64,000 bases of DNA from Gonocerus acuteangulatus (lineage: Eukaryota > Arthropoda > Insecta > Hemiptera > Coreidae), in NCBI GenBank assembly GCA_946811695.1, contig OX328125.1, forward strand, positions 100,286,643 through 100,350,642, read 5' to 3'. Both the position numbers and the translations under genes were made by a program. This document shows, in pieces, positions 6,504 through 45,051 of the stretch (positions within the stretch are counted from its first letter, which is position 1; each line of letters starts with the position of its first letter). Under the pieces are notes generated by a model. It was not told the origin of the DNA, did no database searches, and saw only the letters and a list, made by a program, of their open reading frames with translations.

Positions 6504-7388
6504 TTGGCTGTGTGTGCGCGTGTGTATGTATTACGTTTGCACCTCTCCCCTGAACTTATTTCGCTTATTTATAACTTCATGAATGATCTGCACTTTTCTT
6601 CCAAAAAATCGAAGTCTAAATAACCTGTATACCTACATTGAGCCTTAAATGACAACATAGTCTGATTGCTGATATATATAATATTTATATAGTATGCTAT
6701 CTATCCGAAGCATTGACTCCAGCTTATAGAATAACGCTTGCCAAGCTATGATACGTAGCCTCATAGCCTGGTATGCTAATGGAAAGGATACCCAAGTGTT
6801 GAACGGGACGATCTGGTTTGAAATCTAAGGCTGCACCTACATTGGACCCGTATTTCTCCCCATCCGATCCAATCCGATTTCGTTTGACCGACAGCGGCCG
6901 ACATGAGTGCCTACATTGGTCTCGACCCGACCGATCCGATTTAGTCACAGCTCGTCAGTAATGACCTCGTAGAGAAGTGAAAGTGAGTGATTCATTTAAG
7001 AAATACTACCTAATAAGCACAGAAACCCTCGATTAGGTTGAACGTTGGAGGTATGAAGGTGGAGTAGAGAGGCCAATCAGTCTTCTGGAAGTATATCAGT
7101 CCAGAAAAGATCTTATTGGAACAGTTAATTTTTAACTGTTACCTACGATAAGGGAAGCATTAGTATTAATATTTTAAAATTATTTATAAGAACGGTAGCT
7201 AGAAGGTTTTAAGCATTGGAAGATTATAAACATTGGAAGGTTTTAGACATTGGATGGTTCTAAACATCTTTCCACGTAATTTAATAAACAAGGGAAAGAA
7301 AAAACAAATTAAAAAAATGCTTTGAAATTGGTTAAGATGTAGAGACCTTTTCGAAACACAATATGTTTGGCAACATTTTGCGTCGTCG

Positions 7389-7417
7389 CACAGTGTAACT
7401 TCCAATGGACAAAAATC
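7389..7417 (+). other. 12-RSS-like left end of Transib element
   Basis: Heptamer CACAGTG (7389-7395), spacer of 13 bp (7396-7408), nonamer-like ACAAAAATC (7409-7417). The heptamer equals the canonical V(D)J heptamer, and the nonamer differs from ACAAAAACC at one base. Confidence 0.65.
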
Positions 7418-8738
7418 TAAATTTTTGTTTCCTTATATTTAATTTTTAATCCTCTAGCAAAGTATAGAAACTATTCAAGGAACTAAAATCGTATAAAACT
7501 AATAAATATTAGTTTTATTTTGATCAACAAACACATTAGCAGTATAATAAACAAGACAAAGTCTTTAAATCCTGTTTCATACCAACAATCAGTTTGAGCC
7601 TCTCTCATTGAAGATAGGACAGTGTTTTTATTGGGTGATCCGAAGGAAATTACGTCAAAACTATTCCTTTCTTATCTGATATAATTGATTATGGATAATT
7701 ACTCCCTTATTATTTACCCTGAATTATTCTTCATTGATTTTTCACATTATTCTTAAGTACAAAATTTTGATAGACCATAGCAAAAAAACTTCATCTGAAC
7801 ACACCTCAAGTTTTTTAGAGCTTAAAGTTTACCTCAAGTATAATGTACTGAGGGCAATTTCGTTTGCCGAAACTTGCCGATTCCAAAGATTTTTATTTTT
7901 AGATCCATCACATAATACAATTTATTTTTTCTTCCAAATTTGAAAAAATGAGGATAAATCCAAGAAAACGGTATTAATCCTTCGGCAAATGATTCAATTT
8001 AATCTGCAGGATGCTCCTAAAGAAATATTAAGCAATATTAAAAAGACTGCAAGTTTAATGTAAAAAAATGTGGGAACGTGTTCACCGCAGAAAAAAAAAC
8101 TCTTATATAAATACTGGTTGAAACAATATATCAACTTAGAAGAAATTGTTATCAATTTTTAACAAGAAAAAAGATATTCACGCCCTGATGGCCCTTCCGG
8201 CTTCCTTAGAGGCAGACATAAAAAAGAGTTTACAGCGTTGTGTGAGAGATGGAAAAAGCGCCGGGTTCTTTGATATCTGGCCCAGAGCTTTCTTTACGGA
8301 GTAAAAATATAAAAAGGCAAAGCAAAATCAGTCGAGACATTAATGAATGTATAATAGAGGATGAAATTAATAATCAAACAGATATTGGTTTCGATATAAG
8401 TTTACATTCTCTAGAATCCAAAAACGATTCAGATTCGGAATTAAGAAATTATTTAATAATTTCATAGAAAATGGTAACATATTATTATTCTATAGCAATT
8501 TTATAATAAGTATAATTTACTACTATACTATTACTACATTATATGTTACAGTTATAATATATTTTATAATATTGTTATTAATAATATTATTACCTGCTAT
8601 ATTATTTCTATTAATATCACAAATATTACAATTAATATTATTATAGCCGTATAGTAAGCATTATTATACTATTGTTACCTTGTTTTGAGTTGATTTCAAT
8701 TAATAAAAATTTTTATTTGAAAATAACTAGTGGTTAAT

Positions 8739-8777
8739 GATTTTTGTCCATAATCCTCACTACTTCGTTACATTGTG
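8739..8777 (-). other. 23-RSS-like right end of Transib element
   Basis: Read on the minus strand: heptamer CACAATG (8777-8771), spacer of exactly 23 bp (8770-8748), nonamer-like ACAAAAATC (8747-8739). The TGG before the nonamer and TAAC after the heptamer are shared with the left end. Confidence 0.65.
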
Positions 8778-9119
8778 CGTCGGTCCGAAATCGGTCTAGA
8801 ATCAAACAAGTTTGAACGGCCGAGAATCGGTGGCAATCGAATCGGATCGGATCGAGTCGGGTCGGAACAAATGTAGGCACCTCCGTTGAGAATATCCCAC
8901 AGTCGGTGGCTACCGGATCGGATCGGGTCTAGATGTTAGTCTACCAAGTTTATTTTACTGAAAATCTAACCTTAATCTGCATTATATAACCTTTTGTCGT
9001 CTAATTGTTCGGATTCTTGAACTCAATTGCTACTTAGTATTTTTAATTTCTGTTAGATTGTTTTGTTGTATTCTTGCCATATTTGTTGTACGGCGTCAAA
9101 ACGTTGCTCATGGCTTGTA

Positions 9120-10133
9120 TAGTCTCTGTACCTAAGCCGGTATTCTGTTTTCTTGTAACGAATTGCGCTTGAACGTAGACAGTCATGCCTTCAGTCTCTG
9201 TACCTAAGCCGGTATTCTGTTTTCTTGTAACGAATTGCGCTTGAACGTAGACAGTCATGTCTTCAGTCTCTGTACCTAAGCCGGTATTCTGTTTTCTTGT
9301 AACGAATTGCGCTTGAACGTAGACAGTCATGTCTTCAGTCTCTGTACCTAAGCCGGTATTCTGTTATATTGTAACGAATTGCGCTTGAACGTAGACAGTC
9401 ATGCCTTCAGTGTCTGTACCTATGCCGATATTCTGTTTTCTTGTAACGAATTGCGCTTGAACGTAGACAGTCATGCCTTCAGTCTCTGTACCTATGCCGA
9501 TATTCTGTTTTCTTGTAATGAATTGCGCTTGAACGTAGACAGTCATGCCTTCAGTCTCTGTACCTAAGCCGGTATTCTGTTTTCTTGTAACGAATTGCGC
9601 TTGAACGTAGACAGTCATGTCTTCAGTCTCTGTACCTAAGCCGGTATTCTGTTTTCTTGTAACGAATTGCGCTTGAACGTAGACAGTCATGCCTTCAGTC
9701 TCTGTACCTAAGCCGGTATTCTGTTTTCTTGTAACGAATTGCGCTTGAACGTAGACAGTCATGCCTTCAGTCTCTGTACCTATGCCGATATTCTGTTTTC
9801 TTGTAACGAATTGCGCTTGAACGTAGACAGTCATGTCTTCAGTCTCTGTACCTAAGCCGGTATTCTGTTTTCTTGTAACGAATTGCGCTTGAACGTAGAC
9901 AGTCATGCCTTCAGTCTCTGTACCTAAGCCGGTATTCTGTTTTCTTGTAACGAATTGCGCTTGAACGTAGACAGTCATGCCTTCAGTCTCTGTACCTATG
10001 CCGATATTCTGTTTTCTTGTAACGAATTGCGCTTGAACGTAGACAGTCATGCCTTCAGTCTCTGTACCTATGCCGATATTCTGTTTTCTTGTAACGAATT
10101 GCGCTTGATCGTAGACAGTCATGCCTTCAGTGT
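9120..10133. repeat. 72-bp minisatellite, about 14 copies
   Basis: A 72-bp unit (24 codons) is repeated about 14 times with few substitutions. The minus strand reads MTVYVQAQFVTRKQN plus TGLGTETEG or IGIGTETEG per unit, with one unit (about 9361-9369) carrying a stop that splits it into runs of 252 and 95 codons. The plus strand is also open through many units. Because the period is a multiple of three, open frames are expected without selection. No signal peptide or known domain is visible. A repeat protein is possible but unproven. Confidence 0.9.
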
Positions 10134-10310
10134 TCTTTGAATGTCCGGGTCATTGTGATACAATTGTTTTATTCCTTCATCTTTTAGTTGATTATAAATT
10201 TCTTTAAAACAAGTCACTAAAAGTCTATTATGCTGGTTCAATAAAGAGAATAAAGAATTCAACTAAAAGGTTGTACTCGTAAACCCATCGCTGTGTTATT
10301 AGATTGAATT

Positions 10311-22670: not shown

Positions 22671-24984
22671 TTTTTTTTTTTTTTATTTAATTTTATTGCA
22701 TACAGGGTTTCCCCATTGCAAGGAGTTGACCTTATATAATGTTTTTAGTCCTATGTTAGTAATATATTCATAAACATACCCCAACATAAAACTTTTTACA
22801 TACAGATACTTTGTGAAATAATAAAGTTTAACTTAAAATAAGTGGAAATAAATAAATAATTACATCTTCTATGCATTAAATTTAAGGAGTATTTCTATAC
22901 ATGTACTAAATATAAAATACAATTTCTTAACCAAGAAGTGATTATTAAAAATTATTTTTAGATAGAGAAAACAGTGCAAAAAATGGATTACTTAATATTA
23001 AATATTGGATTTTTTTTTGTGTGTGTTTTTACTATTATTATTATTGTGTCAATCAGAAATTAATGAAGCTCTCAATTTCAAGGAGTTTTTTATATAGTTA
23101 TAAATGTGTATATATTCAAATTTTGAGGCTTTGTTTAAGATTTCGTGTAATCGGGAATTTTCAATAGGTTGGTTGATAAACTGGAGGAATTGCCTTCTAA
23201 TGGGGGAGTAAATAGGACAATGCAAGATAAAATGAAAAATGTCTTCAAATACGTTATTATTACAGAGGGTGCAGATTTCCTGAGGGTTAATAGAATAATG
23301 GATATTTTTTATTGAAAATTTGATATTGTAGTTGCTGGCTGTTCTCAACTGAGCTATGGTTTTTGCAATAACAAAAGGCAGCCCCATGGTGAGAAATTCA
23401 TGAGGTAGGCCTGGGGATACTGAAAGAAATTTGTAAAATGGGCTGTAGTTAGAATTATTCATTTTCTCCAGATCATTACTAAGTAACTTAGCTTTTTGGG
23501 CATCTAAAATTATATTAATCCATCTTTTGATTAAATTAGGGTCCTGAATTAGCCATGTGTCTAGAGAATCCAAAGTGACAAATATATTTTTAACTTGGGA
23601 TACCCATTTAAGCTTTATGTTATTTTGGGGACTCTGATCTAAAAGAAGAAGTCTATTGTAACAAAGCCTTGGAAGTCTATCAGCACTCATAGATAGGATT
23701 TGACAAAGCCAGAGGAGGGTTGATTTTATAACCTGCATTGATACATAATCACTTCCAGTCTCAAGCCTTATCATGTAATTAGGGGTAGTTCTAGTAAGTT
23801 GGAATAGTTTCTTATAGAAATTGGTTTCCGCTTGTTCCAAATAATTTAGATATCTAATGCCCCAGATCTGGGAGCCATAGATCAATGTGGATCTTGCTAT
23901 AGAGTAAAACATTTTCTTTGTGGCCTCCCAACAATGACATTTTGCACCTGCTAAAATACTAAAGACAACAGAGATAGCAGCGTTGAATTTCGAAATTGCA
24001 TATGTTGTCTCTTTGAGATATATCGAGGATGAAGAAAATAAAACTCCAAGATAGACAAATTGTTGGACTTGTTCAATTATTTTTCCTGAGTACAAGTAAT
24101 CTGGATCTTTTCTACATTTACCTTTATGAAACTTGAGAATTTTTGATTTGGAAATATTGACAGTCAATGAATTTGATCGACTATACTCCTCTAAAATAGC
24201 CAACTTGCTTCTTAGATCTACAGGAGAATCGGCTAGTATAATGACATCATCTGCATACAAGAGTACAAGAAGATCATTGTATCCGTCTATACTTAGACCT
24301 TTAGCACCTCTACTTTTGAAAAATAATTCCATATCAGAAAGGAAACATGCGAAAAGAAATGGACTCAATACTTCACCCTGAAACAAACCTTGAGTAGCTC
24401 TTATATTGCGAGTCGATTCCTTCCCAACTTTTACTTGAATTGAAGCATTGCTATAGAGGTTCTGAAGTAGCCGAAGAATTTTAGGACTGACCCCTAAGTC
24501 ATTTAATTTCATCCAAAGGTTTTGGTGGGAAATAGAGTCAAAAGCTCTTTTAAAATCCACAAAGGCTACGTACACCGAGCGTTTAGACAGTCTTAGATGA
24601 ATATGAATGATTGAAGACAAGACAAAAATGTTGTCCATACATCCTCTCCCTTTGCGGAATCCTGATTGGCATTCAGGTAATAACTTCACTTCCTCATCCC
24701 ATATAAGGAACCTATTCAATAAAACCTGAGTGAAGACCTTAAGTAAGCAGTTCACAAGGGCAATACCACGATAGTTTATGGGGTTATGTTTATCTCCCTT
24801 CTTATAAATCATCGGCATGTGAATGAGTGACCAACTTTTGGGAACGTTTTCTTCACAGACAATTTTATTGAACAAATGTTCTAGGTAATTAATCCAATTT
24901 TCTGGAAGAGCTTTTAGAAAGTCATAAGATATTCCGTCGGGCCCGGGTGAAGTTCCGCTTTTGCAAGAATTCAGGCTTTCAAGA
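22671..24984 (-). mobile_element. young 5'-truncated LINE insertion
   Basis: The 3' end (left) is a poly(A) tail (plus-strand T, 22671-22684) preceded on the minus strand by an AATAAA signal (about 22691-22697). The 5' end stops within the RT domain. A 9-bp perfect target duplication ATTTAGTAT flanks the insert (22662-22670 and 24985-24993). The body's reading frame is uninterrupted. These are the marks of recent target-primed reverse transcription with incomplete cDNA. Confidence 0.9.
23049..24984 (-). CDS. LINE reverse transcriptase, N-truncated ORF
   Basis: The frame is open from the insertion boundary to the stop at 23049-23051 (645 codons; the first Met, at 24875, is internal and probably not a real start). 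RT motifs in order: SGTSPGPDGISYDFLKAL (start of RT), INYRGIALVN, ECQSGFRKGRGCMDNIF, VAFVDFKRAFDSI with the catalytic Asp, GLFQGEVLSPFLFACFLSD, LLVLLYADDVIILA with the catalytic Asp pair, then the thumb. A Cys/His cluster CTLCNNN...HFILHC lies near the C-terminus. The apurinic endonuclease domain and any ORF1 are absent. The protein would copy LINE RNA if complete; this copy cannot. Clade (jockey, CR1/L2 or relative) is unresolved. Confidence 0.9.
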
Positions 24985-25167
24985 ATTTAGTATAAAGAAT
25001 TGTAACATTTTGATTTATTTGTTATTTATAATTCAAGAAAGTGACTTAGATTTTGAAGGAACAAGCTAGTATTACCCTGTAATGACGAGACAAGAATAGC
25101 CGCAATGCGCAATACAACTACTAAGGTGAAACATTGTCTCACATAATGCAAGAGACTATGTCATAAC

Positions 25168-28790: not shown

Positions 28791-29188
28791 TCGCCCCGGA
28801 AGCGGCGTCAAGCACAACTTTTCAAGAAGTTTTCGATTTTTTCCTTTAATAACACCCTCATATCTATCATCCTGCAAAATTACAAGTCTCTAGCTTCATG
28901 GGAAGTGCCTAATAATTTTGATGAGTCAGTGAGTCCTATAAATCCCGATTTTCGATCGCTTATATCTCAGAAACTATTCGATGTAGAATTATGAAAATGT
29001 CCAGTTTTACTCACATCTCCTAGTATAATACCTCTATAAAATATCATAACTTTATCTTAACCTGGTTGAAAGTTATGAAAGGGTAAAAATCGGCTCTAAG
29101 ACCTCCTGTAATATACACACAGTATGCTTAGGCCGGAACTTGGCCTGGCGCACTACCGTGCGCCTAGATACACGCTTTGGTCTCCCCG

Positions 29189-29347
29189 TGGCCTAGTGGC
29201 TAGCACCTTAGATTCTGAAGAGCAGATTGTGGGTTCGATTCCTACCGGCGGCACGAATTTTCTCATCTCACGGCTCTTTGAAAAAAATCCTCGCTGCACC
29301 AGGGATGTCGGAGCTAATGGCCCAGAAGTCGATGCGCCGTAAAAAAA
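29189..29347 (+). mobile_element. SINE family D, tRNA-derived
   Basis: The head GTCTCCCCGTGGCCTAGTGG + CTAGCACC gives the A box, and GTGGGTTCGATTCCTACCGG gives the B box. The tail includes TCTCACGGCTC, GATGTCGGAGCTAATGGCCC and GATGCGCCGTA before A7. The GCTAATGGCC...GATGCGCCGTA tail is shared with the 5S SINE at 44.8 kb. Another copy is at 34224-34379. Confidence 0.8.
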
Positions 29348-30807: not shown

Positions 30808-31352
30808 TCAGGCTGTACCGTATGAAATGTCAGTTTTGTTCACTTTGCGATTTAATCCTTTCCCTTTTTTATTTCATTATTTACAAACATCATTGTTATT
30901 CATATAGAATTAAAGCTCTTTTATTCCTATAATTTAATCAGTAACTTGCGTACTGAGTTCTGAGAACGATCCTCTGAGAAAAAAATAAAACTTAAATTAT
31001 TAATTCAACGGAAATCCGTATTATTTTTCGTTATGAATTTAAGCTCGGCCATAGCGCTGCTGAGGCGTGTATGATCATTAACAAGGCGTTCGGGGAGGGA
31101 ACGGTGAATGAACGAACTGTTTACTGGTGGTTTTCCAGGTTTCGAAGTGGAAATTTTGACCTTGACAACGAGGAGCGAGGAAGGCCAGAAACCAAGCATG
31201 ACAAGGACCACCTGAAAGAAAGGGTTGAAGCTTGTCCCTCAATAAGCACTAGGGAATATGCCAATGAACTCGGAGTAGGAGCCACGACAGTTTTAAGACA
31301 TTTGAAGGAAATCGGCAAGTCCAAAACTGACATTTCATACGGTACAGCCTGA
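30808..31352 (+). mobile_element. mariner deletion derivative
   Basis: A perfect 31-bp terminal inverted repeat beginning TCAGGCTGTACCGTATGAAA lies at 30808-30838 and 31322-31352, flanked by TA on both sides (30806-30807, 31353-31354). The interior keeps about 118 codons of the N-terminal part of a mariner transposase and then jumps straight to the right terminal repeat. Length 545 bp. It cannot transpose itself but could be moved by a full-length relative. Perfect ends suggest a fairly recent insertion. Confidence 0.92.
30996..31352 (+). pseudogene. mariner transposase N-terminal DNA-binding part
   Basis: The open frame reads EIRIIFRYEFKLGHSAAEAC, INKAFGEGTVNERTVYWWFS, RFRSGNFDLDNEERGRPE, then CPSISTREYANELGVGATTV and LRHLKEIGKSK. 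This covers the paired helix-turn-helix DNA-binding region of mariner transposases ('YEFKLG..AAEA...I...FGEG.V...T...WF.RFR.GDF.L.....GRP'). The DDD catalytic domain is deleted; the last codons and the stop come from the terminal repeat. If translated it would be a DNA-binding-only protein. Confidence 0.9.
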
Positions 31353-34258: not shown

Positions 34259-35453
34259 CGCCGACATCCAGCGAGGAATTTTACCAGTGAGCCGTGGGAT
34301 GATAAAACTGCTGCCGGAGGTTGGGAATCGAACCCACTTATGAATCCAAGGCGCTAGCCATTAGACCACGGGAGACCCCGGTTCCTGTTCATATCCCTAT
34401 ACTCATTTGAAAAACATAGAATAGAAACAGATAATATTTTACTCGGCCTTTGTTCAAAGGGTTTTATGGCTATACCTCGGGTCGGGTCCGCAAGACCCTA
34501 GAAACCTCTTCTACCGATACTTCATTTCATACGTTTCAATGAATTGGAAAATATCAAAAATTTTCACATATTCCTGTGTTCTTTTACTATAGTAATAATT
34601 CTACAGATAAAATCAATTAAAAAATAAAATAAAAAAACCAACAGCATAAAGCAATTGAAAATATTCAAAAGACGTCATCGAATCTTTTTCTCTTGGCAAG
34701 CTATATTTCTAACAATGAATTGTTTTTCTTATTTTGCCTAATCTGTTTTATTGTAAAATACATTATCCAACTATAAGCAATTAAAAAATAACAATGGATA
34801 AAAACAGACAAAAAGAACAGTTCGAATAAGCAAAATCAATTACTTTAAAGTTTTAAGCACTTATTTCTCCGATTGACATCGCCTAATCAAAACTTTCATC
34901 AGAACCTTTTTTTGTAGAGCATTTAGTAATCATTCTAATGGTATTCTTTCGTTTACCAATATTCTCAACCTTTTTCGAGATATTAAGGAAAATATACAAA
35001 GTTACCAAAACTTTTTATGTCTGTTAATAAAATATTTTATTCTAACACTTCCTTAACTCCAAACGTAACCAAAATGTCAACATATTAGTTTTAATGAAAG
35101 TAGAACATGCAGAAAATGTTTCAACTGAATCCCATGATTCTAAGTACCCAAACCAAAAACGGTATTCAAAAACTATTTTTCCAATTTTCTCTAAAACGGT
35201 TAAAGCTATCGCCTTGAAAATGGTTTCATTCGTTTTCCTAGCCAAAGAAGCCTATAAATCGAGTACTTACAAGCTTATGAACTCAAAAACGTAAGCGTTA
35301 CGATTTTTTTTGCACGAATTTCGCCCCAAACGCCATTTTCCAGTGGGCGGATTTTGCTGGTTAACGAACTTGACCTTTCAAATCGGGCGACAGATTTTTG
35401 TACCAAATTTCATCAAAATCGGACCATTAGGGAGGCCAGAAATCCGCGAACAG

Positions 35454-44881: not shown

Positions 44882-45051
44882 GGCGCATCTACATCTTGGC
44901 CATTAGCGCCGGGCTATCTATAGGTTGCCACCCTTTTATAATGCCAACAGCACGTGGTCGGTCACCCATTCAGGTACCGACCACGCCCGACGTTGCTTAA
45001 CTTCGGTGATCTACGGGAACCGGTGTATTCAACGTGGCTATGGCCGTTGGC
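44815..45051 (-). mobile_element. 5S-rRNA-derived SINE, recent insertion
   Basis: Read on the minus strand from 45051: about 110 nt closely matching 5S rRNA (GCCAACGGCCATAGCCACG at the 5' end, the A-box region AAGTTAAGCAACGTCGGGC, the C-box region TGAATGGGTGACCG, and GCTGTTGGC at the 3' end). Then the tail AAAAGGGTGGCAACCTATAG + ATAGCCCGGCGCTAATGGCC and GATGCGCCGTA, then about 65 A. The perfect 11-bp target duplication TTACCTAAGTA is at 44803-44813 and 45052-45062. The 5S head supplies the pol III promoter. It belongs to the 5S-headed (SINE3-type) class and is not a 5S gene. Confidence 0.93.

Follow-up and report, generated by a model that had tools for sequence, protein, structure and literature searches.

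The window, the 64,000-nucleotide stretch of the Gonocerus acuteangulatus genome that was analysed, carries at positions 7389..8777 (+) an element of 1389 bp that reads as a non-autonomous element of the Transib type. The left terminus begins with the heptamer CACAGTG (7389..7395, +), followed by a spacer of 13 bp (7396..7408, +) and the nonamer-like ACAAAAATC (7409..7417, +). The right terminus presents on the opposite strand the heptamer CACAATG (8771..8777, -), a spacer of 23 bp (8748..8770, -) and again the nonamer-like ACAAAAATC (8739..8747, -). Both ends are bordered by CGTCG (7384..7388 and 8778..8782), a target-site duplication (TSD) of 5 bp. All of these parts were read directly from the letters. 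A broken coding remnant with approximate borders is located at 8058..8467 (+). A tandem repeat of MTVYVQAQFVTRKQNTGLGTETE-type units in an open frame is present at 9043-10149 (-). The inner 13-mer ATGGACAAAAATC, common to both ends, has just these two matches in the window, even with one mismatch allowed. As many near-matches occurred in 6 of 100 shuffled sequences, and the single pair in the window is therefore suggestive, not decisive. A chance origin of the end pair was ruled out by the copies of the family, i.e. the set of 40 copies and the left ends found genome-wide.

Two copies of a tRNA-like SINE are present elsewhere in the window, an empty one at 29185..29300 (+), which does not hold the window element, and a more diverged one of the same SINE at 34269..34372 (-). 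An open frame of 645 aa (23049-24986, -) presumably belongs to a non-LTR reverse transcriptase, and a frame of 118 aa (30996-31352, +) resembles a mariner transposase in what we take to be its helix-turn-helix part. The sole 5S rRNA match in the window (44942-45051, -; 65.6 bits, over the Rfam cut-off) is possibly a pseudogene or a 5S-derived repeat.

A search of the same genome (1.106 Gb in 135 contigs) gave 46 matches representing 40 copies, the best 40 of 1591 candidates. The sample comprises the window copy and 39 others, each extended past the match by 150 bp or more in both directions; picked by similarity to the window copy, it is not a random draw. Of the 39 left ends scored, 37 had a spacer of 13 bp, and the two exceptions look like 1-bp deletions within the heptamer. 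L023, lacking its first 27 bp, was left unscored. All 33 scored right ends had a spacer of 23 bp; the right ends of L027, L029, L038, L041, L044, L046 and L047 were lost or changed and were not scored. Four of these copies (L041, L044, L046 and L047) were considered as fragments of a longer autonomous element and rejected, their tails having nothing in common beyond the element. The inner motif shared by both ends is ACAAAAAYC, at 13 and 23 bp. The heptamer CACAGTG was read in 30 of the 39 left ends scored and in 26 of the 33 scored on the right. The right heptamer CACAATG of the preliminary description is hence correct for the window and not for the family, in which it is a minority form (2 of 33 right ends, the window copy and L037). 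A consensus from 32 copies is 1399 bp long, with a mean divergence of the copies from it of 3.5%. Because the copies are so closely related, the conserved spacing reflects shared descent and does not amount to many independent tests.

A pattern search allowing up to two mismatches detected 863 left ends genome-wide, while the reversed control pattern gave none. Among the 100 left ends listed, all of them exact, 81 end in ACAAAAACC and 19 in ACAAAAATC. The pattern fixes the spacer at 13 bp, so this search is no test of spacer length. CACAGTG is the canonical heptamer of the recombination signal sequence (RSS), and ACAAAAACC the canonical vertebrate nonamer (PMC8289069). A second sample consisted of 14 hand-picked left ends of this list on contigs C1 and C5, for which about 2.5 kb downstream were fetched. 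A right end was recognisable in four, giving element lengths of 608, 1024, 1051 and 1891 bp; all four had the 23-bp right spacer, and their TSDs were exact at 5 bp in three cases and had a single mismatch in the fourth. No right end was found in the other ten within the approximately 2.5 kb scanned; in most of them, insertions or the end of the fetched stretch are probably responsible. Three copies (L062, L068 and L073) carry an additional 1.4-1.9 kb around consensus position 284, part of which they have in common; the 1.4-kb form is thus one among several size classes. The parts of these longer forms that were scanned held no frame above 161 aa.

The duplications were compared in 32 flank pairs. 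All 5 bp agree in 17 pairs and one base differs in 10 more (27 within one mismatch); in none of the 32 does an exact match extend past 5 bp. Among copies outside the SINE, 6 of 8 true pairs were exact, and of the 56 mismatched pairs used for comparison, 4 were. The preliminary description had proposed Transib-type ends, an asymmetric pair of spacers and a 5-bp CGTCG duplication, and had named a lack of conservation of any of the three among further copies as the sign of an error. The flush heptamers with their 863 left ends, the 13- and 23-bp spacers and the length of the duplication all proved to be conserved.

Most insertion sites, inside and outside the SINE, have a GC-rich core of the CGNCG type. 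An A is present at position +6 in 14 of 19 non-SINE half-sites from 10 copies (binomial 3e-4, with an assumed A frequency of 0.33); four of the 19 derive from one shared repeat and hence are not independent. In this second repeat, TTTTGCGT-CGTCG-GTCCGAAA (window 7375-7395 and 8771-8790), the window copy and L030 occupy an identical insertion point and face opposite ways. The extended motif TTN5CGNCGN5AA occurred once in a small background sample of 114.6 kb (13 stretches of 4 kb together with the window, its element removed). Target motif and SINE are hard to tell apart, because this sole occurrence lies inside a SINE. The earlier suggestion of CGWCG-type targets thus holds in so far as the core is of the CGNCG type here. 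As a hallmark of Transib it was not confirmed: the Drosophila Transibs hopper and transib2 are reported to form their 5-bp TSDs at the palindromic CCANTGG, GC-rich for hopper (PMC3276498). CGCCG, the 5-mer used in structural work on the RAG strand-transfer complex (PMC11844651), is also among the target 5-mers of the family.

The tRNA-like SINE holds 30 of the 40 copies, 29 of them at one 5-bp site, CGGCG. These 29 are inserted in both orientations (19 one way, 10 the other); the SINE was recognised on both sides in 23, and six were judged from one side. In L027, one of the six, the other flank is an unrelated piece of the SINE. L009 is the sole SINE-borne copy off the hotspot and lies further along the SINE, with the flanks GGTCG/GGTCA. 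The remaining ten copies, the window element among them, are outside the SINE. In the second sample, chosen by the left end alone, the SINE adjoins an element end in 8 of 14 copies. The background contained 102 CGNCG sites, of which five fall within SINE matches, and seven SINE copies that span the target (about 61 per Mb). The binomial tail for 30 of 40 copies in the SINE is approximately 3e-31; with the background fraction at its upper bound it rises to 6e-21. These counts rule out the CGNCG 5-mer alone as the cause of the hotspot. A comparison of the outermost 55 bp across 80 flanks revealed two similar pairs only, one of them the window copy and L030, which indicates independent insertions. 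That the element and the SINE had been amplified together as a single unit was ruled out by the two orientations and the unrelated outer flanks.

Intact copies of the SINE are also present in L049, L051, L059 and L060. The SINE contains an A-box-like TGGTCTAGTGG and a B-box-like GGTTCGATCCC, and the target CGGCG follows directly behind the latter. Both boxes were named by eye against the general consensus and are presumed to be such. The label tRNA-like rests on these eye-read motifs, since tRNA models gave no match to the SINE: the Rfam tRNA model did not match the intact copies in L049, L051, L059 and L060, and ARAGORN reported no tRNA in L036, in which the SINE is split by the element insertion. 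The tmRNA model gave a match to a T-arm piece of the SINE in L049, below the Rfam cut-off. Apart from the SINE, L051 has a tRNA match over the Rfam cut-off (775-844, +; 31.9 bits).

An autonomous partner with a RAG1-core-like transposase, as expected in the preliminary description, was sought in searches that were not exhaustive, and no RAG1-like transposase was found in the copies read. The RAG1 Pfam model had no match in the genome; it was equally silent in 14 of 14 control genomes, and the result is for that reason uninformative on absence. Frames were at most 174 aa long in 11 of the 14 second-sample copies scanned. The coding remnant is repeated in the genome (150 matches scored of 1466 first-look candidates). 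Two queries with the remnant gave nothing over the Pfam cut-off; matches below it, to ERCC4 (E 0.013) and CpXC, were obtained in one of them. Solved structures in the PDB gave no match over the threshold (best E 0.79 and 0.53). Longer open frames at L083 (194 aa) and L095-L097 (197-209 aa) were discarded as the remnant running on into A/T-rich sequence. As a guess, the remnant may be part of a lost Transib transposase. For autonomous Transibs, copy numbers of one or a few are typical (PMC4411706), and not meeting an autonomous copy here fits this reported low number.

The family is very probably a non-autonomous member of the Transib superfamily. It has the 5-bp TSD, the CACWRTG-type heptamer and the GC-rich palindromic target of Transib elements, and it shares with the 12/23-asymmetric Transibs a nonamer-like motif that stands off from the heptamer by about 12 bp at one end and about 23 bp at the other. 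Points against this identity are that no transposase was found and that the CGNCG core differs from the CCANTGG of the two Drosophila Transibs. Membership in a different superfamily, or descent from a RAG1L-RAG2L (RAGL) transposon, is very unlikely. No transposase was seen, nor a RAG1L-RAG2L gene pair in the copies read, none of which was found to be autonomous, and RAGL elements are reported to have CAC ends and 5-bp TSDs as well (PMC7204232). The protostome RAGL end consensus CACTWMCAAACKTYKBB, however, misfits the family ends CACAGTGTAAC (PMC7204232). Transib is the better fit for the heptamer and the A-rich motif inside it, as well as for the 5-bp TSD and the GC-rich target. More weight must be given to the possibility that the element is this same Transib and the 13/23 spacing incidental, the inner motif being an ordinary subterminal transposase-binding site, placed one helical turn (10 bp) deeper at one end and subject to no pairing rule. 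Its probability is set slightly short of even. Most Transib families are described as symmetric, and the ends of Hztransib have little or no nonamer similarity (PMC8289069); invertebrate RAG-like enzymes are expected to be rather insensitive to asymmetry (PMC7204232). The copies moreover share descent. The difference of 10 bp is close to one helical turn and would let the two inner motifs face the same side of the double helix, an arrangement that a plain subterminal binding site would lead one to expect just as much. An incidental origin has to account, on the other hand, for two spacers within 1 bp of 12 and 23, for a canonical heptamer combined with a canonical nonamer at 81 of the 100 left ends listed, and for the same asymmetry in other Transibs (PMC8355894).

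The hotspot permits a further reading, in which factors of RNA polymerase III tether the transposition complex at the B box and DNA sequence preference plays no part. The position of the target directly behind the B-box-like GGTTCGATCCC would agree with it, as would the Dada transposons, which target tRNA and snRNA genes (PMC3706591). Tethering would be expected to scatter insertions around the target, yet 29 of the 30 SINE insertions occupy one 5-bp site. The GC core and the A-rich shoulder recur at insertions outside the SINE, and the second repeat that the window copy and L030 share in opposite orientation shows no B box by eye in the flanks read. Tethering is therefore considered improbable, and a preference for the DNA sequence of the target is favoured.

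Transibs with 12/23 asymmetry are already in print: Transib5 of Drosophila melanogaster and Transib2, N1, N2 and N3 of Anopheles gambiae, listed in PMC8355894 after Kapitonov and Jurka 2005. They resemble the present family in the heptamer, the nonamer-like motif and spacers of 12 or 23 (+/-1) bp (PMC8355894). Compared by description, the present family differs in its CACAGTG consensus at both ends, the canonical nonamer at most of the left ends listed and the SINE hotspot. It is an unusually RSS-like new member of these known 12/23-type Transibs. Hztransib from Helicoverpa zea (3518 bp) is likewise a Transib with a GC-rich 5-bp TSD, GCTCG (PMC1852546); in contrast, it encodes a transposase and its ends are symmetric (PMC8289069). 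The vertebrate V(D)J signals share CACAGTG and ACAAAAACC; their spacers measure 12 and 23 bp (PMC8289069), those of the present family 13 and 23 bp. Unlike the vertebrate pair, the present family is a dispersed mobile element in a 1.1-Gb genome, and neither RAG1 nor RAG2 was found here, the search with the RAG1 model having had no positive control. Dada elements likewise are DNA transposons with a fixed insertion site, in their case within small-RNA genes of many copies, but their TSDs measure 6-7 bp and their targets are true tRNA and snRNA genes (PMC3706591), whereas the present family targets a tRNA-like SINE and has a quarter of its studied copies (10 of 40) elsewhere. No Transib with a SINE hotspot was encountered among the titles and abstract openings listed in the literature searches. 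The hotspot is a fresher point than the 13/23 ends, with weak support from the literature for its novelty.

By analogy with the known biochemistry of Transib and RAG, a Transib transposase supplied by another element would bind the heptamer and the inner motif at each end, and the bound ends would be excised via a nick-hairpin route. Insertion would follow at a GC-rich target that is symmetric and has shoulders rich in A/T. The tRNA-like SINE may offer such a target in the CGGCG right behind its B box, and could thereby have become the main landing place of the studied copies. The enzyme might also prefer to pair a short-spaced with a long-spaced end. This is the least certain step, and such a preference appears about as probable as its absence; the copies share recent ancestry, and their conserved spacers therefore do not prove a 12/23 rule. 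The full proposal, a target-selective, RAG1-related Transib lineage with a near-exact canonical RSS pair and a 5-bp site of a SINE as its main home, is put forward tentatively and is rather doubtful as a whole.

The hotspot suggests how selective a transposase of the Transib type may be towards its target, and that DNA transposons can use a retroposon as a landing site. The origin of the 12/23 rule has been placed either with vertebrate RAG2 or already in the transposon ends, and PMC8355894 and PMC7204232 lean differently on this question. For a test of that origin, ready-made natural ends are provided by a large family whose motifs nearly equal those of the RSS and whose spacers measure 13 and 23 bp. 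If the proposal is true, the lineage could reveal whether a 12/23 preference existed in transposons without RAG2.
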